A stretch of 41,867 bases of DNA from Candidatus Auribacterota bacterium (GTDB lineage: Bacteria; Auribacterota; Tritonobacteria; UBA1439): NCBI GenBank assembly GCA_026392035.1, contig JAPLCX010000080.1, positions 1 through 41,867 of the forward strand, written 5' to 3'. Position numbers and translations under genes: made by a program. A model generated the notes under the pieces. It was not told where the DNA came from, did no database searches, and saw only the letters and a program-made list of their open reading frames with translations. Shown piece by piece: positions 2,151 through 18,411 of the stretch. Position 1 is the stretch's first letter, and each line of letters begins with the position of its first letter.

Positions 2151-2373
2151 ATACAAGGGGGTCAGCCGCATAACCTTTTTCCTGACCATTCGAAAAAAAG
2201 AGCCGGACAGGCCGAGTGAAAGGAGGGGACAACGCACCTGCGGTGCGATTTCAAGCTCGAACCTGTCCAGTTCTTTTGAACCTTCCGGTGCACATGCGCA
2301 CTCTTTTCGATCTATAAAGTTAGACGCAGCAGCCCGCGGCGCGTTCAAAATATTTTCGCGCTTCATGTGAGCA

Positions 2374-2409
2374 AAAAAGCCAGGCACTTAACCCCTTGCC
2401 TGGCTTTTT
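2374..2409 (-). terminator. Rho-independent terminator (bidirectional)
   Basis: A perfect 13-base stem (2374-2386 with 2397-2409) with a 10-base loop and A/T runs on both sides. It lies about 85 bases past the stop of the YdjM-like gene and would end that operon. In the other direction no gene needs it. The remaining sequence between 2105 and 2492 shows no convincing gene. Confidence 0.9.
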
Positions 2410-2492
2410 GTTACACTCCACGCCGAACCTAGCGCCAAATCGGAATCCAGATTATGCTTTTTACACTTTCTGCTTTCAACCTTGTGCTGTCG

Positions 2493-3578
2493 TTACTGCA
2501 TATCCCCCGTGGAGAAATCAGTTACCTCATAGGTGAGTTCTTCCGTTCTTATCCTGTCCTCCTTAGCAAGAGCTTTTTCGGCAGAAATCTCCCCGCCTTT
2601 CTTTTCCTCTCCCTTCTCACCGAACAGTTTCGTGATGGCGAAATAGGCGGCGAGGGGGATCGCCAGCACATAGAGGATGTACTGGAGCATCCCGAGCTTA
2701 ATAGGCGGCTGCGGAGAGAAGCGGCTCAAGTTATAGAGCAGAAGCGCTACTGCCAGATAATCCACCGCAAAATTGACGTGCGGGTTGTTCGCCTTGGCGA
2801 GGCACAGGCCGTTCGTCCTGTCCTTCTGAAAAGGCCAGAGGAGGCTCCCCCCCATGTGGCCGGTGAGATCCTCCGCAATGTGGACGGCATAACCCAGAAA
2901 CGCCACCAGCCCATACAGCCAGCCCATGCCCCATCCGGTGACGAGCGATGCAAGGAGCCATACGCCGATGGAAAGGAAAAAGCCCAGGACAAAGCTGTGG
3001 CTCCAGGTCCGATGCCAGGGGAGAAATTCCACCTCCACCACGTCCTCCATTTTCCTGAAACCGAACTGCGGCCCGCTCATGATGTCCACCACCGAGGGTC
3101 GGCCATGCGGATCGAGCATCCTGCCCTTGAGCGTATAGCGTCCCACGCGGTTCTGCTTCGGCTCAGTGCCGAGATAGGGGATCTGTGAGGTGGTGACGAT
3201 TTCGTTGATGACGACCACGATCTCGTTCTTCTCATTGTCGAACTTGATGACATACTGCCGCCAGAGATCCGCACCCAGGCGCATCGGGTAGAGCTGCACC
3301 TTCACATAGCGCCCGGTCGCGTAGGATTCGTCTATCGCCCGTCCGATCTGTTCTGCCATCTTCTGGGGGTTGGGATTATTGGGATCGGCATCAATATCAT
3401 AGTCGACGCGTGAGAGAAATTGGCCGAACTTGAAGTCGAGGGTATCGGGGAGGATCCCGAAGAGACCGCCGAGCACCAGGATATATGAACTCGCGATATT
3501 GCTATTCGCCAGTTTCGTCGCCGCGGGGATAAATGACGCTATCGCCACGCCGCTTATAAAATGGGTCAAACCCTTCAT
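2493..3578 (-). CDS. YdjM/DUF457-like membrane protein (predicted metal-dependent hydrolase)
   Basis: 361 residues. The N-terminus (THFISGVAIASF, then GGLFGILPDTLDF) and the later motifs WSHSF and HIAEDLTGH are those of the YdjM/DUF457 membrane-bound family, whose His/Asp residues are predicted to bind metal. Several hydrophobic segments occur at both ends. A soluble insert of roughly 130 residues (about 55-185) makes it much longer than the ~200-residue family norm. The start has a good site (GGAGGG nine bases upstream). It is last in a unit with the TctA-like permease and OB-fold protein, separated from the permease by 111 bases holding a hairpin repeat. Substrate and activity are unknown for the family. 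Confidence 0.75.
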   Translation of the reverse strand: MKGLTHFISGVAIASFIPAATKLANSNIASSYILVLGGLFGILPDTLDFKFGQFLSRVDYDIDADPNNPNPQKMAEQIGRAIDESYATGRYVKVQLYPMRLGADLWRQYVIKFDNEKNEIVVVINEIVTTSQIPYLGTEPKQNRVGRYTLKGRMLDPHGRPSVVDIMSGPQFGFRKMEDVVEVEFLPWHRTWSHSFVLGFFLSIGVWLLASLVTGWGMGWLYGLVAFLGYAVHIAEDLTGHMGGSLLWPFQKDRTNGLCLAKANNPHVNFAVDYLAVALLLYNLSRFSPQPPIKLGMLQYILYVLAIPLAAYFAITKLFGEKGEEKKGGEISAEKALAKEDRIRTEELTYEVTDFSTGDMQ

Positions 3579-3602
3579 TGCATTACCCTCCGTTCACGTT
3601 TT

Positions 3603-3680
3603 ACCACTGAAGACACTGAAGTCACTGAAAAATATTACTCTTATATTTCTTCTTTCAGTGTATTCAGTGTCCTCAGTGGT
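3603..3680. repeat. Hairpin repeat of the CACTGAAGA family
   Basis: Inverted repeat with 28-base arms (3603-3630 and 3653-3680, three mismatches) made of three tandem CACTGAA units per arm. It sits between the permease and YdjM-like genes inside one apparent transcript. No T-run follows, so RNA processing or partial attenuation is more likely than termination. Confidence 0.85.
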
Positions 3681-3689
3681 TTACCTCTT

Positions 3690-5024
3690 TCAATCTAAAT
3701 GGAAAAATTTCAAGACCGCCGGGCCATGGCCCGCCATGCTGAGCGCCAGCCAGATGAGCAGCAATGCCATAGAGTTACTCAATCGAGCATGGTAAAATGC
3801 GGGAATGAGCCCGATCCCCGTTCCCACCGCCATAAGAAACATTCCCATCCATCCCGTGAGGCCCCAGACAATAGCGAATATAATACCGAGCGCAATCCAG
3901 AGGACATGATGATAGTCGATGCAGGTGATGAGTTTTATCGTCCAGCGGGTGAGCGGGAACATCATCAGGAAAGCGAGCGCGCCACTGATCATCATAACGG
4001 CAAGAATCTGAAAATATTCCTCAAAGGTATAGGGGGTAAAGATCGGCTTCAGAATAATAGACATCCCGCCGCGCGCGATTCCCCCGCCCTTGGGCATGAG
4101 CGTCGGCACGAAGAAAAGCAGAAACGCGCCGACATAGTACACCACCTTTGAAACCCCTTGCGAGACCACGAAGATCCGGTCGTCTCGCTGGCCGGTCGCC
4201 GCCCCTGCAATAATGCCGCCGATGCCACCGGTGACCGCAGGGGTGACCGCCGCAATCCCGCCGCCGATGGTGCCGGCAAAAATACCCTTGGCGAGAAGAC
4301 GATGATCGCAATCGATGGTGGAACTGATATACTGCGGCGGAACCTCCTGCCTCGAGACAAGATTTCTGGAAATAATCGCTACGGCAAAGAGCCCCACGAA
4401 TACCGGCATGATACCCTGGAAACTCATTTCCAATGGCACCAACGTCCGATTGAGTATTATGAATCCCATGAATCCTGCCAGGGCCATCGTCCCGATGCCC
4501 GCAACAAGATTTGCCCAGGCCCATTTGAACTTCTCCCACTTGGTCCTGCCGAGCCCCGTCCCCTTCGGCCATTCACTCATGATCATGTAGGTGACGACGA
4601 GAAGCAGGATCCACGCAAGGTTCTGGCTGCGTATCTGGACGATCGCCGGCAGGGTGTAGAAACAGAACGGCGTGAGGAGCGCCATGACGATGATTGCCGC
4701 GAGACTCCCGACACCGGTGAGGATGGCCGCTTCGTATCCCCGTCCCTGCATCATATACTTCTGCCCCGGCAATACGACGAAGACCGCCGCTTCATCAGGG
4801 GCGCCGAAAAACATCGAGGGGATCGTATTGATGATCGACCAGGCGACAAGCTGCGACATGAAAAACGCCGGCAGGGCAACCTCCGGGATGAGCTGCGGCC
4901 AGGCGAACCATGCGAGCAGAACGATGCCGGCCACATTAAATATATGGAGGGCGGGGATCATTGACAGGAGCCCCCCGATGACCGTGCCGAGAATGGTATA
5001 GATAAGAATCAGGATATAATCCAT
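3690..5024 (-). CDS. TctA-like (DUF112) integral membrane permease
   Basis: 444 residues with about 11-12 hydrophobic segments and two similar halves. Segments such as GTVIGGLLSMIPALHIFN near the N-terminus and GTIGGGIAAVTPAVTGGIGG near residue 260 match the glycine-rich repeats of the TctA permease family (large subunit of tripartite tricarboxylate transporters). No TctB or TctC partner gene is nearby, so citrate transport should not be assumed; this resembles orphan TctA-like proteins. It is preceded by an OB-fold protein gene (23-base gap) and followed by a YdjM-like gene. The ATG has AGGAG six bases upstream. The substrate is unknown. Confidence 0.75.
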   Translation of the reverse strand: MDYILILIYTILGTVIGGLLSMIPALHIFNVAGIVLLAWFAWPQLIPEVALPAFFMSQLVAWSIINTIPSMFFGAPDEAAVFVVLPGQKYMMQGRGYEAAILTGVGSLAAIIVMALLTPFCFYTLPAIVQIRSQNLAWILLLVVTYMIMSEWPKGTGLGRTKWEKFKWAWANLVAGIGTMALAGFMGFIILNRTLVPLEMSFQGIMPVFVGLFAVAIISRNLVSRQEVPPQYISSTIDCDHRLLAKGIFAGTIGGGIAAVTPAVTGGIGGIIAGAATGQRDDRIFVVSQGVSKVVYYVGAFLLFFVPTLMPKGGGIARGGMSIILKPIFTPYTFEEYFQILAVMMISGALAFLMMFPLTRWTIKLITCIDYHHVLWIALGIIFAIVWGLTGWMGMFLMAVGTGIGLIPAFYHARLSNSMALLLIWLALSMAGHGPAVLKFFHLD

Positions 5025-5047
5025 GATCTTCTCCTCTCCCGTATCAC

Positions 5048-5998
5048 TTAAAAAAACACCGACGACTGAGATTCTGATTCTCCCTCGCCCCCTTCGCGAG
5101 AAGCGCCCGGCTTCTTGCCCTCTTCCGCGCCTTCGCGTATCTTTTCATAACCGGGTATCTTCTTCGTGGGGATCGTATCATCCTTCAAAACCTCGATCTT
5201 CTCGACATCGCGGACTTTCACCTGGGGCCTGCCATTAAATGCATCCACACTGCCCGCCACCCTGATCTCGTTGCCAATCCCGGTGACTCTTTCTATATCC
5301 TTGATCCGGTCAAGATCGCTCTTGAAGAGAGGGACATCCGTCGTGCCTGTGACATCGCCGATTACCAGTATGGTAGTCCCTTTAATCCGTTTGACCGCAA
5401 TGATCTCCCCCACCACCTCCACCGCCTTATTCTTATTCGCAAGAGTGACTTTGTCGATCGTTACTTTTTCGAACACCGCCGGGATCACCTTCACTCGTGA
5501 GGGGATATTGATCATGAGGCTCGTCCCGTACTTCTCGGTCATCTGAATGGATCCGACCACACTCACCTCATCGCCCACCTGTGGAACATTCCCCAACGCG
5601 CGCATCTTGCTGAGCCCCCGGAACGCCTGGGCCCTGACCTGCTCGCTCCCATCGTCAACATCGAACGCCACACCATCCCTGCCCGTCATCGAGACCTTCA
5701 CGACCTTCCCCCGCACCTCGACCACGGCGTTGTTCATCCGGGCATTGATGTTCCCGATGCGGACAATGGGTATCTTGATCTTCGTCGCGGTAAACCACAG
5801 GAGCGCCAACCCTCCGATCGCGAGCACCAGGGCGGCGCGCTTGAAGAAGATGATACTCATCCTCTTTTTCAACTCCGTCCCGCAGTACGGGCACTTCTCG
5901 TACGCCCCCACGAACTTCCCGCAACTAGGACAGAGCGTCTCCTCGGGAAACTCACGAATGGCTTCAATGCCACCGCCGACGTATCGTTTCTCTTCCAT
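5048..5998 (-). CDS. Zinc-ribbon, membrane-anchored protein with two OB-fold domains
   Basis: 316 residues. A four-cysteine zinc ribbon (C23, C26, C36, C39) is followed by one membrane segment (about 52-70). Two OB-fold, nucleic-acid-binding-like domains follow (about 90-165 and 183-272, each with a pattern like VEVRGKVV or VEVVGEII). The C-terminal tail is Glu/Gly/Ser-rich and disordered. With a single membrane span the OB folds would face the periplasm if the ribbon is cytoplasmic. The start is firm: GGAGGGG lies just before ATG 5998. It is the first gene of the OB-TctA-YdjM unit. The OB folds could bind single-stranded nucleic acid or a different ligand; no function is established here. 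Confidence 0.7.
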   Translation of the reverse strand: MEEKRYVGGGIEAIREFPEETLCPSCGKFVGAYEKCPYCGTELKKRMSIIFFKRAALVLAIGGLALLWFTATKIKIPIVRIGNINARMNNAVVEVRGKVVKVSMTGRDGVAFDVDDGSEQVRAQAFRGLSKMRALGNVPQVGDEVSVVGSIQMTEKYGTSLMINIPSRVKVIPAVFEKVTIDKVTLANKNKAVEVVGEIIAVKRIKGTTILVIGDVTGTTDVPLFKSDLDRIKDIERVTGIGNEIRVAGSVDAFNGRPQVKVRDVEKIEVLKDDTIPTKKIPGYEKIREGAEEGKKPGASREGGEGESESQSSVFF

Positions 5999-6192: not shown

Positions 6193-6201
6193 ATTATAGC
6201 A
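6193..6201 (-). promoter_or_regulatory. Extended -10 promoter for the OB-fold/TctA/YdjM unit
   Basis: TGCTATAAT on the minus strand is a consensus extended -10 (TGnTATAAT), which needs no strong -35. The start would lie near 6186, leaving an untranslated leader of nearly 190 bases. That leader includes a hairpin with seven-base arms, CGCGCGA/TCGCGCG, at about 6070-6090. The rest of 5999-6228 shows no gene. Confidence 0.45.
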
Positions 6202-6228: not shown

Positions 6229-7044
6229 TTATCCCCCGTGACACGGTGAGGGCGCCTCGCGCTCTGTGCGGTGATACTCCACCACGTCGCTCACGCGGTC
6301 GGCGTAGGTGAGCCGTATGTTCACACGCTCGAATCCGGCCTCTCGCATTGCCCGTTCCACCACCATGCGCGCCATGCCCGGCCTGTTGCACTCCTCTGAC
6401 AGGTGCGCCAGGAACACGTCCGAGAGTTCCTCCGAGGCAACCTCCGCGATGAGCTCTGCGGCCGCGTCATTGGACAGGTGTCCCACATCACTGCGGATTC
6501 TCTCTTTAAGGGAGACATGCCGCGGGCCGTTGTTGAGCAGATCCTGGTCATGGTTAGTTTCTACTACAAGTACGCTGCACCCCTGGAGCATCCGTTTCAC
6601 CGTTTTTGATGGATGACCGCAGTCGGTGACGATACCGATCCGTATCTCCCCATCGCGGATAATGAAACCCACCGGATCACTGGCATCGTGCGGGACAGGG
6701 AACGGATGGACTGTCACGGTCCCCAGGGCAAACTCAGTCCCGTTCTTGAAAAATTTCAGCCTCTCCGAGGGGATGCCCTTCTCAATGATGGCGCTCGCCG
6801 TCTGCCGGTTGACGTACACCGGGACGCTGTGGCTCCTGCACAGTCCCGCGAGCCCCCTGATATGGTCGTGGTGCTCGTGGCTGATCAGAACGGCCTCGAT
6901 CTCTGAGAGCGCCGCGCCCGCCGCCGAGAGCCGCCCCTCCAATTCCCTGCGGCTCAGACCCGCGTCGATGAGGAAGCTATAGCCATCGCCGGCGATGTAG
7001 ATGGAATTACCGGAACTCCCGCTCCCGAGAACGCACATTCTCAT
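6229..7044 (-). CDS. YycJ/WalJ-type metallo-beta-lactamase fold hydrolase
   Basis: 271 residues. The N-terminal LGSGSSGNSIYI strand and the metal motif HEHHDH (H56, H58, D60, H61) define the metallo-beta-lactamase fold. The GSSGNS start and overall length match the YycJ/WalJ/VicX family, thought to act as an exonuclease in DNA metabolism. Downstream metal ligands are plausible (PVPHDASDP, VTDCGH, HLSNDA, HLSEECN). It stands alone, with 230 bases to the next minus-strand gene. The ATG at 7044 has a modest GGAG upstream. No walK/walR genes are adjacent, so no link to cell-wall signalling is implied. Confidence 0.85.
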   Translation of the reverse strand: MRMCVLGSGSSGNSIYIAGDGYSFLIDAGLSRRELEGRLSAAGAALSEIEAVLISHEHHDHIRGLAGLCRSHSVPVYVNRQTASAIIEKGIPSERLKFFKNGTEFALGTVTVHPFPVPHDASDPVGFIIRDGEIRIGIVTDCGHPSKTVKRMLQGCSVLVVETNHDQDLLNNGPRHVSLKERIRSDVGHLSNDAAAELIAEVASEELSDVFLAHLSEECNRPGMARMVVERAMREAGFERVNIRLTYADRVSDVVEYHRTEREAPSPCHGG

Positions 7045-11828: not shown

Positions 11829-11901
11829 ACCACTGAGGACACCGAAGACACTGAATAAACGATATTTCAGCGCACTCAGTGTTCTCAGTGCCCTCAGTGG
11901 T
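11829..11901. repeat. Hairpin repeat of the CACTGAAGA family
   Basis: An inverted repeat fills the gap between miaA and hflX: left arm 11829-11855 (CACTGAGGA/CACCGAAGA/CACTGAA units), right arm roughly 11873-11901 with the complementary units. No T-run follows. It belongs to the same family as 1365-1477 and 3603-3680. Confidence 0.8.
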
Positions 11902-13651: not shown

Positions 13652-15388
13652 TTACGTTCGGCCGAACTTCTTGTCCAGTTCCGCCATGCTTATCATGATG
13701 ATCGTCGGGCGGCCGTGCGGGCAGGAGTTTGGGGATTTGCACTTCAGGAGATCACTCACCAGCCTCTGGAGTTCCTCGCCCCTCAGCGGGTCTCTCCGCT
13801 TCACCGCGGCGCGACAGACCTTCATGGCCACCCTCGCCGCCATCTCGTCCTTCACCGCCCTGCTCCTCCCCTCCTCCGCGAGCTCGCCCAGGACATCACG
13901 CATGAGCCGCTCGGCGTCTATGGCGCCCAGGCAGGCCGGCAGGTGGTCCACCTTCACGTCATTGTCACCGAATAACTCCACGCCGATCCCCAGTGATGTA
14001 AACGTCCCGATATGGTCGCCCACCAGCGCATACTCGGGCGCCGAGAGGTGCACCACGGCGGGGATGAGGAGGCGCTGGACCTCGCCCTCCCCCTTTTCGC
14101 CGAGGCGCATCACCTTCTCAAACAGGATGCGCTCGTGCGCGGCGTGCTGGTCTATGATCGCCATCCCTTCAGGAGTTTCGCAGATCACGTAGAGATTCTT
14201 GATCTGGCCGATGGGGCGGAGGCGCTCCATTCCCGTTCCCAGAGCGCCCTCACTCGCCCCCTCCGAGGGCAAGGGTTCCTGGGCGAACGGTGCAACGGGG
14301 ATCCTCGAGGTCAATCCGCCCTCGCTCATGGTCTCGTAATGGGCGACCGGTTCGCTGACGGTCTGACCGTGTGCGGTGAACCCCGCTCCCGCGGCGCACC
14401 CTGAGGAGCGGAGTGCGCGCGACAGAACTTCCCGTACGAGATCGCGGACGAGTGAACCGTTTCGAAAACGCACCTCGCGCTTCGCGGGGTGGACGTTCAC
14501 GTCAACCTCGGCGGGGTCAATTTCGAGAAAGACGAAAACGACCGGGTAGCGTTTCGCGGGAAGGACCCCCTCGCAGGCGTCCACAACCGCGAAACTTATG
14601 ATTTTGTCCTGGACTGGCCGGCCGTTGACAAAGAAATGCTGCCCGCTGCGATTTCCCCGTGTCACCTCGGGCGCGCTGATGAAGCCGCGTATCGAAACCG
14701 AACCACTTCCCTCACCGAACGGTATTAGTTTGTCCGCGAGCTCCGCGCCGAAGAGCGCTCTGATGCGGTCGATCGCCTTTGCGGCGGCAGGCCCCCTGAT
14801 AATCTCCTCACCATCTGAGATGAGCGTGAAACCTATCTCCGGCCTCGCCAGCGCCTGAGAGATCACCGCTGAGGCGATGTATGAATTCTCCGCCCGTTCG
14901 GAGCGAAGAAATTTGCGCCGCGCGGGGGTGTTGAAAAAGAGGTCGCGGACGATGACCTCGGTGCCCTCCGGAGCGCCCGTTTCCTTGACCTCTCCGATCC
15001 TGCCCCCCACCACGGTCACGCGCGTCCCGGCAAGCGCCCCCCGTTCCTTTGTCGTGAGTTCCAGGCGCGAGACGGCCGCGATGGAGGGGAGCGCTTCGCC
15101 GCGGAATCCCAGCGTGCGGATGGCGAAGATATCGGCGGCATCGGTGATCTTGCTCGTCGTGTGCCGCTCCAGTGCGAGCCCCGCGTCCTCCCGCCCCATC
15201 CCGCAGCCATTGTCACGCACCCTCACCAGCGACGTGCCGCCCGTGCGCACCTCGATGGAGATCTCGGAGGCGCCCGCGTCGATCGCGTTTTCCATAAGCT
15301 CCTTGACCGCGGACGCCGGCCGCTCGACCACCTCGCCGGCGGCGATCTTGTTCACGACCCCATCGGGCAACACCCTAATGCGGCTCAC
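13652..15388 (-). CDS. mutL: DNA mismatch repair protein MutL (endonuclease type)
   Basis: 578 residues. The GHKL ATPase core has MENAIDAGA, DNGCGM and TLGFRGEAL; the transducer domain has GRPVQDK and VDVNVHPAK. The C-terminal domain carries the endonuclease motif DQHAAHERILFE (from D413) and CPHGRP (from C556), so this MutL should nick DNA itself, as in bacteria without MutH. The linker (about 325-390) is short. The start is GTG at 15388, overlapping the mutS stop by 14 bases, so translation is coupled. It is the last gene of the mutS-mutL unit. Confidence 0.97.
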   Translation of the reverse strand: MSRIRVLPDGVVNKIAAGEVVERPASAVKELMENAIDAGASEISIEVRTGGTSLVRVRDNGCGMGREDAGLALERHTTSKITDAADIFAIRTLGFRGEALPSIAAVSRLELTTKERGALAGTRVTVVGGRIGEVKETGAPEGTEVIVRDLFFNTPARRKFLRSERAENSYIASAVISQALARPEIGFTLISDGEEIIRGPAAAKAIDRIRALFGAELADKLIPFGEGSGSVSIRGFISAPEVTRGNRSGQHFFVNGRPVQDKIISFAVVDACEGVLPAKRYPVVFVFLEIDPAEVDVNVHPAKREVRFRNGSLVRDLVREVLSRALRSSGCAAGAGFTAHGQTVSEPVAHYETMSEGGLTSRIPVAPFAQEPLPSEGASEGALGTGMERLRPIGQIKNLYVICETPEGMAIIDQHAAHERILFEKVMRLGEKGEGEVQRLLIPAVVHLSAPEYALVGDHIGTFTSLGIGVELFGDNDVKVDHLPACLGAIDAERLMRDVLGELAEEGRSRAVKDEMAARVAMKVCRAAVKRRDPLRGEELQRLVSDLLKCKSPNSCPHGRPTIIMISMAELDKKFGRT

Positions 15389-17990
15389 GACATTTCTCCT
15401 GCAATATCTTCAATCTGTAGAGCGCCTCGATGGGCGACATTTTGTCAACGTCAATGCTCTTCAACTCCTCGATGACCGGATGAGGCCGCATTTCAAAAAG
15501 GGTCAACTGCTGCGCCCCCGCCTGATCAGGGGGCGCGCCCTCAGGCCTGGGAAGCCGCTCCTCGCGGATGCAGCCTTCCTCAAGGGCGTTGAGGATGTCT
15601 TTCGCCCTCTCGATCACCTTCCGGGGGAGGCCGGCGAGGCGCGCGACGTGGATCCCATAGCTCTTATCCGTTCCGCCGGGGACGATCTTGCGCAGAAAGA
15701 CGATCTCGTCATTCCACTCCCTGACGGCCACGTTGTAATTCTTCACGCCGGGGAGATTCATTTCAAGTTCGGTGAGCTCGTGGTAGTGCGTGGCAAAGAG
15801 CGTGCGGGCGCGGACGGCGGTGTTGTTGTGGAGATACTCCGCCACGGCCCACGCGATGCTGATCCCGTCGAACGTGCTCGTCCCCCGCCCGATCTCATCC
15901 AGCACGATCAGGCTCTTCTCCGTAGCGTTGTTGAGGATGTTCGCGGTCTCGTTCATCTCCACCATGAAGGTGCTCTGCCCGCGCGTGAGCTCGTCCGACG
16001 CGCCCACGCGCGTGAAAATCCTGTCAACGACGCCGATCGTCGCGCGGGTCGCGGGGATGAAGCTTCCCGTCTGCGCCATGAGGACGAGGAGCGCCACCTG
16101 CCGGATGTAGGTTGACTTGCCCGCCATGTTCGGCCCCGTGATGATGAGGAGTTGGTCGGTCTCGGTGTTCAGGAGCGTGTCATTCGGGACAAATCGCTCA
16201 TCCACGAGCATCAGTTCGAGGACGGGATGCCGGCCGTCGATAATCTCGATGACATCCCCCTCGTTCACCTCCGGCCGCACGTAGTTGTTCCTGCGCGCCG
16301 CCACCGCGAGGGAATTGAGCAGATCGAGGAGGGCGACCCCCCGCCCCACGCGCTGAACCCTCTCCGTCTCGGCAACGATCTTTTCCCTGATCCTCTGGAA
16401 TATCGTGTACTCCATCGCGGCGGCCTTCTCCTCCGCGCCGAGCACCTTGGACTCGTACTCCTTGAGCTCGAGGGTGATGAAGCGCTCGCCGTTGACCACG
16501 GTCTGCTTCCTGATGTAGTCAGCGGGCGCCGCGCCGAGGTTCGGTTTCGTCACCTCGATGTAGTACCCGAATACCCTGTTGTACCCCACCTTCAGCGACC
16601 TGATGCCCGTCCGCTCGACCTCCCGCTTCTGGAGTTCGACGATCCATCCCTTGCCGCTGCGCGCGATGCTCCGGATTTCGTCGAGTTCCGTGTCGTACCC
16701 CGACCTGATGACGCCGCCCTCGCGCACCGTCAGGGGTGCATCCGGGTCGATGCCCTTTTCGATCAACGCCGAGATATCGCTCATGTTTTCGATCGTCCCG
16801 CGCAGGCCTCCGATAATCTCAGAGGCCAGGGGCGCAATGCACTCCTTCAGGGACGGCAGGAGATCAACGGACTGTTTCAGCGCGAGGAGATCGCGGGCGT
16901 TCGCGTGCCCGCAGTCGATCCTGGCGATGAGCCGCTCGATGTCTTTAAAATCCTTCAATATTTTCGAGAGCGCATCGGAGGTTGCGGCGTTATCGAAGAG
17001 CTCCTGTACCCCGCCCTGCCTGCGCACGATATCCTCCACGCCGATGAGCGGCTGGAGCAGCCACTGCCTGAGAAGCCTCGCGCCCATCGAGGTCGAGGTG
17101 TGGTCGAGCACTGAGATCAGCGTCCCCTCGCAACCGCCGGACCTCAGGTTTCGCACGAGCTCGAGGTTGCGCTGCGTGTAGATATCGAGGATCATCTGAT
17201 CGGTGTTAATCGAGCGGGTGATCTTCGTCACATGGGCGAGTGAGGAGTGGCCCGTCTCCTTGAGGTAGTGGATGACCGCGCCCGCCGCGCCGATCGCGGG
17301 GCCGAGGTTCGAGCAGCCGAACCCGTCGAGTGATTGGGTATGGAAGAACTCTTTCAGGCGGCCGTACGAGCTCTCGTACTCGAAGAGCCAGTCGTCAAGC
17401 GGGTTGACCATCGCGAAGGAGCTTTCCTTCACGCGGCGCAGGAATTCCTTGTCTTCCGCGAGGCCCAGCGGCAGCAGGAACTCGCTCGGCGCCACGCGAC
17501 CGACCTCGTTGAAGAGATCCGTTTCCCGCGCGATCTCCGCCACCACGAACTCTCCCGTCGAGAGGTCGAGATAGCACAAACCGTAGAGGCCGTTTGCCCG
17601 GTTGATGGCGGCGAGGTAGTTGTTGCTCTTTTCCCTGAGCAGGCTCTCCTCCAGCACTGTCCCCGGCGTCACTACCCTCGTGACCTCGCGCTTCACCAGC
17701 CCCTTGGCGAGCTCGGGGTCCTCCACCTGGTCGCACACCGCCACCCTGTGCCCCGCCCTCACGAGCTTCGCGATATACTCCTGGACGGCATGGTACGGGA
17801 CGCCGCACATCGGCACCTTGTTCCCCTTCCCGCTCTCCCGGGAGGTGAGGGTGATGTTGAGTATCCGGGATGCGGTGAGCGCGTCGTCGAAGAACATCTC
17901 GTAGAAATCGCCCAGTCGGAACATGAGGATGGACGGGGGGGTCTCTTTCTTGATCTTTCTGTACTGCTGCATCATGGGCGTGAGTTTCAT
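15375..17990 (-). CDS. mutS: DNA mismatch repair protein MutS
   Basis: 871 residues. The mismatch-reading motif FYE (29-31, in GDFYEMF), the connector, lever and clamp domains, and the ATPase with Walker A GPNMAGKST (619-627), then LDEIGRGTSTFDG and THYHEL, make this a canonical MutS1. The ATG at 17990 is chosen: upstream in-frame starts (17996, 17999, 18050) would add residues translated from intergenic CACGGAGA repeat DNA (reading LRALRGET), which is not part of the family. It overlaps mutL by 14 bases and follows the GxxExxY gene by 49 bases. Confidence 0.97.
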   Translation of the reverse strand: MKLTPMMQQYRKIKKETPPSILMFRLGDFYEMFFDDALTASRILNITLTSRESGKGNKVPMCGVPYHAVQEYIAKLVRAGHRVAVCDQVEDPELAKGLVKREVTRVVTPGTVLEESLLREKSNNYLAAINRANGLYGLCYLDLSTGEFVVAEIARETDLFNEVGRVAPSEFLLPLGLAEDKEFLRRVKESSFAMVNPLDDWLFEYESSYGRLKEFFHTQSLDGFGCSNLGPAIGAAGAVIHYLKETGHSSLAHVTKITRSINTDQMILDIYTQRNLELVRNLRSGGCEGTLISVLDHTSTSMGARLLRQWLLQPLIGVEDIVRRQGGVQELFDNAATSDALSKILKDFKDIERLIARIDCGHANARDLLALKQSVDLLPSLKECIAPLASEIIGGLRGTIENMSDISALIEKGIDPDAPLTVREGGVIRSGYDTELDEIRSIARSGKGWIVELQKREVERTGIRSLKVGYNRVFGYYIEVTKPNLGAAPADYIRKQTVVNGERFITLELKEYESKVLGAEEKAAAMEYTIFQRIREKIVAETERVQRVGRGVALLDLLNSLAVAARRNNYVRPEVNEGDVIEIIDGRHPVLELMLVDERFVPNDTLLNTETDQLLIITGPNMAGKSTYIRQVALLVLMAQTGSFIPATRATIGVVDRIFTRVGASDELTRGQSTFMVEMNETANILNNATEKSLIVLDEIGRGTSTFDGISIAWAVAEYLHNNTAVRARTLFATHYHELTELEMNLPGVKNYNVAVREWNDEIVFLRKIVPGGTDKSYGIHVARLAGLPRKVIERAKDILNALEEGCIREERLPRPEGAPPDQAGAQQLTLFEMRPHPVIEELKSIDVDKMSPIEALYRLKILQEKCREPH

Positions 17991-18014
17991 AATCATCATC
18001 CAAAGAAATAATGT

Positions 18015-18039
18015 CTCACCACGGAGAGCACGGAGACAA
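18015..18039. repeat. CACGGAGA repeat, downstream flank of the GxxExxY gene
   Basis: Units CACGGAGAG and CACGGAGAC in tandem, ending at the GxxExxY stop codon. It is complementary to the units at 18411-18440, so the two could pair around the gene. Confidence 0.75.
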
Positions 18040-18411
18040 TTAAAGAACAAACCTCTTTAGACCCTCTTTCAGTATCGCAACATTGAAATTGATGAGCAGG
18101 CCAACCTCAATCTTGGCAAGCTTCATATAGGTTAAAAGCTGAGCCTCATGGATACCCATAATTTCTTCAACACTTTTGATTTCCACTATTAGCTTTTTAT
18201 CCACAACCATATCAATCCTATAGCCACAGTCGAGCCGTATGCCTTTATATTCTAACGGGAGGGGGACTTGAACCTCAAAAGGGGTATTGCATAGTTCCAA
18301 TTCACGTGCGAGACACTGCTCATATGCTGACTCCAGAAGACCAGGGCCAAGCGCCCTGTGGACCTCAATAGCGCATCCTATTACTTTTTCAGTCAAATCA
18401 CTATACTTCAC
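18040..18411 (-). CDS. GxxExxY family protein (PD-(D/E)XK-like fold)
   Basis: 123 residues. GPGLLESAY (the GxxExxY signature, about residues 22-30) and the core [17 protein letters not shown] (Asp...Glu-Ile-Lys) followed by QLLTYMKL and GLLINF place it in the GxxExxY family, related to PD-(D/E)XK nucleases. Activity is uncharacterised. The gene is flanked on both sides by complementary CACGGAGA repeats. Its GTG start directly follows the upstream repeat, whose GGAGG acts as the ribosome site. Its base composition is more AT-rich than mutS next door, suggesting transfer. Repeat plus gene may be one mobile unit. Confidence 0.85.

Follow-up and report, generated by a model that had tools for sequence, protein, structure and literature searches.

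The DNA considered here is the whole 41,867-nt stretch (the window) of contig JAPLCX010000080.1, from Candidatus Auribacterota bacterium. Its minus strand carries, in this order, genes for a membrane-anchored protein with oligonucleotide/oligosaccharide binding (OB) folds, a TctA-like permease, and a YdjM-like membrane protein (Table 1). A first-pass annotation, made from the sequence, had read these as one co-directional unit, with an extended -10 promoter element before the first gene and a terminator after the last. All three open reading frames (ORFs) and both signals were recovered: the -10 element is TGCTATAAT, a type with 2 sites in the window (41.9 kb) against 0.35 expected, and the terminator is a T-tailed hairpin at about 2376-2409, which a consensus terminator scan omits because its loop limit is 8. 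With the -10 element before the OB gene and the hairpin after the YdjM gene, the trio reads as a single unit.

Table 1. Features of the OB/TctA/YdjM unit and its immediate surroundings in the window (TM, transmembrane).
Feature	Position	Strand	Evidence
Terminator-like hairpin with T-run, 3' of YdjM	about 2370-2415	-	z -3.08
YdjM-like membrane protein, 361 aa, inserted beta domain at residues about 92-185	2493-3578	-	PF04307 6.3e-16
Long hairpin, permease/YdjM intergenic	3603-3680		z -9.51; copy of dispersed palindromic repeat
Orphan TctA-like permease, 444 aa	3690-5024	-	PF01970 2.1e-31; PALH..N / PDE / LPGQ motifs
OB protein, 316 aa: N-terminal zinc ribbon, single TM helix, two OB folds, C-terminal tail	5048-5998	-	
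OB fold 2, residues about 187-275	5174-5440	-	NCBIfam partial match, HAN nuclease, residues 187-274
OB fold 1, residues about 87-163	5510-5740	-	Pfam
Single TM helix, residues about 52-70, KKR before it	5789-5845	-	Sequence
Zinc ribbon, residues about 20-44, CPSCGKFVGAYEKCPYCG	5867-5941	-	Sequence; conserved in alignments A3 and A5
Extended -10 promoter element TGCTATAAT, preceding the OB gene	6193-6201	-	
Metallo-beta-lactamase-fold protein, upstream neighbor	6229-7044	-	PF12706 7.7e-24

The unit is conserved. Among 59 relatives, the permease was found in 17, an OB match in 20 (one of them weak, at 1e-4, in G055, which lies outside the phylum), and YdjM in 16. Of 20 regions fetched from relatives, 18 have the main permease; OB is upstream on the same strand in 18/18 of these, and YdjM downstream on the same strand in 17/18, the remaining contig stopping ~350 bp past the permease. 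Three genomes of the family have a second complete copy of the trio, with a permease about 50% identical. The permease is present in 31 of 384 genomes, all bacterial and 13 of them outside the phylum; at those 13 loci YdjM was found in 12 and OB in 10, with the stored stretch too short for two of the three OB misses.

A scan of 84,980 species gave 104 permease relatives, of which the best 80 were analyzed as named loci (taxon names are those of the record titles). They include Auribacterota-type bacteria, Chloroflexi, Verrucomicrobia, Lentisphaerae, Kiritimatiellae, Planctomycetota, Spirochaetes, Muiribacterium, Wallbacteria, and others; the nearest, L045, is also titled Candidatus Auribacterota bacterium, and its permease is 89% identical. 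A profile search placed OB upstream in 60 of the 71 loci where more than 900 bp were available (within 150 bp in 56), and YdjM downstream in 41 of the 68 where more than 1200 bp were (within 400 bp in 35); most loci lacking YdjM come from records titled Chloroflexi, Anaerolineae or Thermoflexia. Beyond the trio, no gene is broadly conserved beside the unit in the named loci. Because of these co-occurrence counts, OB and permease are taken as the core, with YdjM a frequent third part. The gene-neighborhood search that the first-pass annotation proposed as its check thus came out in its favor, the trio recurring across bacterial phyla. An apparent OB-permease fusion in L109 was rejected, since the 977-aa ORF arises by an extension, out of frame, on the upstream side of the permease. 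In a Lentisphaerae record (L091:3073-9315), two copies of the unit stand in opposite orientation, their OB genes facing each other's start.

No relative was found in viral contigs. In 72,556 plasmid records, the OB protein had no match and the permease matched only two, both cyanobacterial and 22-24% identical; phage or plasmid carriage of the unit was rejected on these results. In the Cylindrospermopsis record (NZ_CP060823.1), an annotated OB-fold gene (30.9 bits against the OB profile) lies 11 bp upstream of TctA, with a nuclease-related gene downstream; in Pseudanabaena (NZ_CP112877.1), a 231-aa gene annotated as hypothetical (36.9 bits) lies 383 bp upstream. Since these loci were found by the permease alone, the OB neighbor there is independent evidence for the pairing. 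Like the present unit, they pair an OB membrane protein with a downstream TctA, which clusters with the present branch; they differ in having no zinc ribbon and no YdjM match among the genes tested, and the permease is about 23% identical.

The permease is an orphan, as the first-pass annotation had proposed. The genome (96.5% complete) has one TctA, no TctC, and no TctB, so that a distant TctB/TctC partner was also rejected; TctC is present in 2 of the 59 relatives. Some control genomes give matches for TctA, TctB, and TctC alike; in two others, Methanocaldococcus jannaschii and Methanosarcina acetivorans, TctA is present and TctC and TctB were not found. Published accounts describe archaeal TctA proteins without TctB/TctC partners (PMC5898192; PMC5812351).

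The trio permease also belongs to a branch of TctA apart from the canonical one. PF01970 scores are 58-137 bits for trio permeases versus 425-547 for full-length canonical TctA (partial canonical pieces score lower), and a FastTree phylogeny of 62 sequences splits 53 family members and the 2 cyanobacterial permeases from 7 canonical TctA with support of 0.983. The family has the motifs PALH..N, PDE, and LPGQ, versus PG-type motifs and DG in canonical TctA, the 7 canonical sequences having been preselected with a PGxG filter. The PG-type motifs of TM1 and TM7 are not found in the present permease, where TM1 has PALH and the second site PAVTGG; among the 7 canonical sequences the first site itself varies (PGLT, PGLS, PGMT, PGLG), and the second is PALG in one. 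A Pfam scan up to E 1 gives TctA alone, with no Competence domain (PF03772), and a sequence search for solved relatives of the permease or the YdjM-like protein gave none at E 1. In a fold search, the permease model had no significant likeness to any solved structure, its weak matches being mostly small-solute carriers. A second TctA-like permease, about 30% identical, follows YdjM in four loci (L050, L054, and L056, from G013, G031, and G033, and L043, from G028); the TM1 His is replaced (PGIR) in both examples shown.

One possibility is that the permease carries a small, carboxylate-type anion and needs no TctB/TctC, the OB protein taking the place of TctC as extracytoplasmic receptor or regulator. 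The Pfam TctA family, which the unit has in common with the tripartite tricarboxylate transporter TctABC, and the weak fold matches are consistent with this, and in its published description the archaeal stand-alone family is suggested to transport carboxylates (Makarova 2015, PMC5898192). From TctABC, however, the unit differs in having neither TctB nor TctC, in its separate branch, and in its altered TM1/TM7 motifs; archaeal genetics (below) also favor DNA. In addition, RPA-type OB repeats are not known as a fold of solute-binding proteins of the TctC class. On balance, we consider a small-anion carrier unlikely.

The OB protein has the zinc ribbon, membrane anchor, and two OB folds first read from its sequence, the first fold being placed by Pfam and the second by a partial NCBIfam match. 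It matches Pfam tRNA_anti-codon (PF01336) at 5.7e-12; a match to DUF4131 is weak (0.002, below cut-off). The ribbon pattern, CPSC..CPYC, was read from the sequence, its Pfam zinc-ribbon matches falling under the curated cut-offs. A profile of the OB family (35 sequences) searched against the PDB has archaeal RPA (replication factor A) as its top match (1.2e-10), followed by RPA32, STN1, aspartyl-tRNA synthetase, TiaS, and exonuclease VII. By this comparison the repeats are of the nucleic-acid-binding OB class, with single-stranded DNA (ssDNA) binders on top but not alone.

Since KKR precedes the TM helix, the OB folds are predicted to be outside. Among 72 OB genes of the named loci, classed by simple regular expressions and hydropathy rather than a dedicated predictor, 46 have a CxxC..CxxC ribbon, and in 42 of these the net positive charge is greater before the TM helix than after it. 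Another 11 are lipoprotein-like, all without a ribbon; the other 15 match neither pattern, several being cut or mis-started. The charge pattern suggests that the OB folds are probably outside the membrane and the ribbon inside.

No paper on a bacterial OB-TctA-YdjM unit was found in the openly licensed PMC literature, but there is an archaeal parallel. In Methanococcus maripaludis, MMJJ_13020 (OB, one TM helix) and MMJJ_13030 (TctA-like) are each reported as essential for transformation, with complementation, and the pair as needed for transformation by plasmids; MMJJ_13030 is proposed as the DNA transporter (Fonseca et al. 2023, PMC10133366). The same account describes a TctA homologue as essential in Methanoculleus thermophilus, with no single clear OB homologue there by BLASTp. 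The two M. maripaludis genes have consecutive locus tags and, as here, specify a one-TM OB protein beside an orphan TctA-like permease. The zinc ribbon, the usual YdjM, and bacterial hosts nearly all with ComEC belong to the present unit, whereas a ComEC-free host would be expected for the archaeal pair. On the reading preferred below, the unit would work like the archaeal pair, and is probably related to it.

Archaeal genetics, OB folds of RPA type, an orphan branch of permeases, and a conserved pairing all agree in direction, and the reading that we tentatively prefer is a membrane module for the handling and transport of DNA or long oligonucleotides. It would handle ssDNA on the external side of the cytoplasmic membrane and most likely move DNA or long oligonucleotides across it, presumably inward. 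The anchored RPA-like OB protein would hold the strand and pass it to the orphan permease, which would be the channel or carrier. In units with a YdjM-like protein, this might be an accessory membrane hydrolase, either trimming the substrate or working locally on lipid or envelope. The first-pass annotation had suggested a membrane system whose substrate is nucleic acid, nucleotides, or some other polymer; this is still conjectural, with the YdjM step unsupported, but its nucleic-acid part gains support from the RPA-like OB profile, from nuclease-type neighbors in some lineages, and from the archaeal genetics as published (PMC10133366).

Several observations weigh against a DNA-transport module. 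ComEC (PF03772) is encoded in the genome, separate from the unit, as well as in 19/19 genomes of the phylum with permease or OB and in 46/50 of the other named permease genomes, so that a DNA-import step is already covered. SNase shows no association with the trio: it is found in 42 of the 59 relatives, with and without the trio, and an association like that in the archaeal screen was rejected. The nuclease-type neighbors are lineage-specific, and their numbers are raw counts without a background rate. The OB profile also matches the OB folds of a tRNA synthetase and TiaS, and OB folds can bind RNA and sugars too; the fold-search results for the permease, given above, count on the same side. 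The likeness to MMJJ_13020/13030 holds at the level of Pfam families and is drawn from published descriptions. Finally, one account includes MMJJ_13030 in its list of genes affected by selenium status (PMC11097638), in keeping with a solute carrier.

Replacement of ComEC by the unit was rejected, given ComEC in nearly all carriers. ComEC itself (DUF4131 OB, Competence, and MBL, or metallo-beta-lactamase, domains) combines an OB domain with a membrane DNA channel and so offers a functional analogy; the present permease is unrelated to it, and the true ComEC stands elsewhere in the same genome. With ComEC in nearly every bacterial carrier, the unit might be a second route for DNA, act in a different direction or on a different strand product, or import degradation products.

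The last of these leads to nucleic-acid scavenging, in which secreted or anchored nucleases would cut environmental DNA, the OB protein capture oligonucleotides, the permease import nucleotides or short oligonucleotides as anions, and YdjM remove phosphate or trim, making this a nutrient system rather than one for gene transfer. The neighbors of some loci would suit it, as would the nuclease-related gene in Cylindrospermopsis. An EEP-family nuclease is upstream of OB in three (L070, L080, L121; Pfam run on L070), lamin-tail (LTD) and PLD-like proteins are downstream in another three (L065, L074, L115; Pfam run on L065 and L115), and LysM and LTD proteins follow the permease in five (Pfam run on L086); LTD domains go with extracellular nucleases. 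ComEC, being already present, would make a second route of genetic uptake superfluous, and TctA relatives are described as carrying multivalent anions (PMC5812351). However, genes of nucleotide catabolism are not widely conserved next to the unit, and the archaeal pair is reported to be needed for plasmid transformation (PMC10133366); scavenging seems to us unlikely.

A broader form of the preferred DNA-transport reading, which we consider doubtful, is a second, ComEC-independent machine, common to bacteria and archaea, that takes ssDNA through the cytoplasmic membrane, made of an anchored RPA-like OB protein and a TctA-branch permease, standing beside ComEC in bacteria and there usually joined by a YdjM-type hydrolase, with the permease branch a DNA-transport family mislabeled as a tricarboxylate carrier. 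What transports DNA in naturally transformable archaea is not known, according to the account in which one OB/TctA pair is a candidate (PMC10133366); a pairing of the same kind across Auribacterota-type bacteria, Chloroflexi, Verrucomicrobia, Planctomycetota, and Cyanobacteria would make the archaeal case a cross-domain family. If true, this would provide a recognizable family signature, correct the misleading "tricarboxylate transporter" annotation, and offer candidates with which a second bacterial route of DNA transport could be tested.

The YdjM-like protein scores 58.8 bits against PF04307 (curated cut-off 29). It shares with the YdjM family the profile match and His/Asp motifs, eight residues being invariant across 42 YdjM-like sequences (H6, D45, D48, H189, R190, H194, H233, D237); the inserted beta domain is its own. 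Its structure model is confident (pLDDT 88.9), but Foldseek finds no solved relative at E 0.001 or better, and the best VIA match (Z 6.1) covers only residues 262-321. PF04307 is a putative relative of phospholipase C/P1 nuclease, which is not confirmed here: neither is among the fold matches listed for the model.

Escherichia coli YdjM is described as LexA-regulated and as a predicted membrane metal-dependent hydrolase, possibly a phospholipase (PMC11442139). This would suit an envelope or lipid module, in which the permease would be a flippase for a lipid-linked or anionic component of the envelope, YdjM a membrane hydrolase of lipid or phosphate, and the OB folds a binding site for oligosaccharide; an MlaD-domain neighbor in L085 and L087 could be read in the same way. 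Such a module is quite improbable, however: the OB profile is RPA-like, YdjM was not found downstream in 27 of 68 loci, and genes for glycosyltransferases or lipid synthesis are not widely conserved next to the unit.

Of the 19 genomes of the phylum with permease or OB, 8 also encode a long second ComEC (open frame >1000 aa), compared with none of the 25 others, leaving out G029, where a 1025-aa frame around the only ComEC match was taken as an ORF extension; at family level the counts are 4/7 versus 0/10 (p 0.015). The association is suggestive, and confounded by ancestry. Four such ComEC-like proteins, of about 1080-1300 aa and from genomes with the trio (L157:1258-5154, L158:1634-5422, L159:12228-15515, L160:2530-5757), have Competence and DUF4131 matches, the MBL match being weak or missing in three of them.

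Two further nuclease-type neighbors have MBL domains: L060:1702-3435 combines MBL, HHH repeats, and an OB fold in one protein about 2.4 kb upstream of the unit, with CorA between, and an MBL protein lies near the L055 unit on the other strand; both MBL sequences are presumably ComEC-like. Other loci have unrelated immediate neighbors, e.g., with GNAT, MlaD, or methyltransferase domains. In the window, the MBL-fold gene upstream of OB is probably outside the unit, because the promoter stands between; its cluster (C5) is present in 5 of the 80 named loci.

The strong intergenic hairpin between permease and YdjM, a feature absent from the first-pass annotation, belongs to a dispersed palindromic repeat whose core is CACTGAAGACACTGAAG and which has 10 matches (up to 3 mismatches) in the window against 0.08 expected; copies lie at 1368-1474, 3603-3680, and 11831-11856. 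Downstream of the unit (204-2104) are genes for an ECF sigma factor and a zinc-finger/PDZ protein, possibly an anti-sigma factor, and similar genes are near the unit in a few relatives. Adjacent MutL and MutS genes lie on the minus strand at 13652-18050, ~8 kb from the unit.

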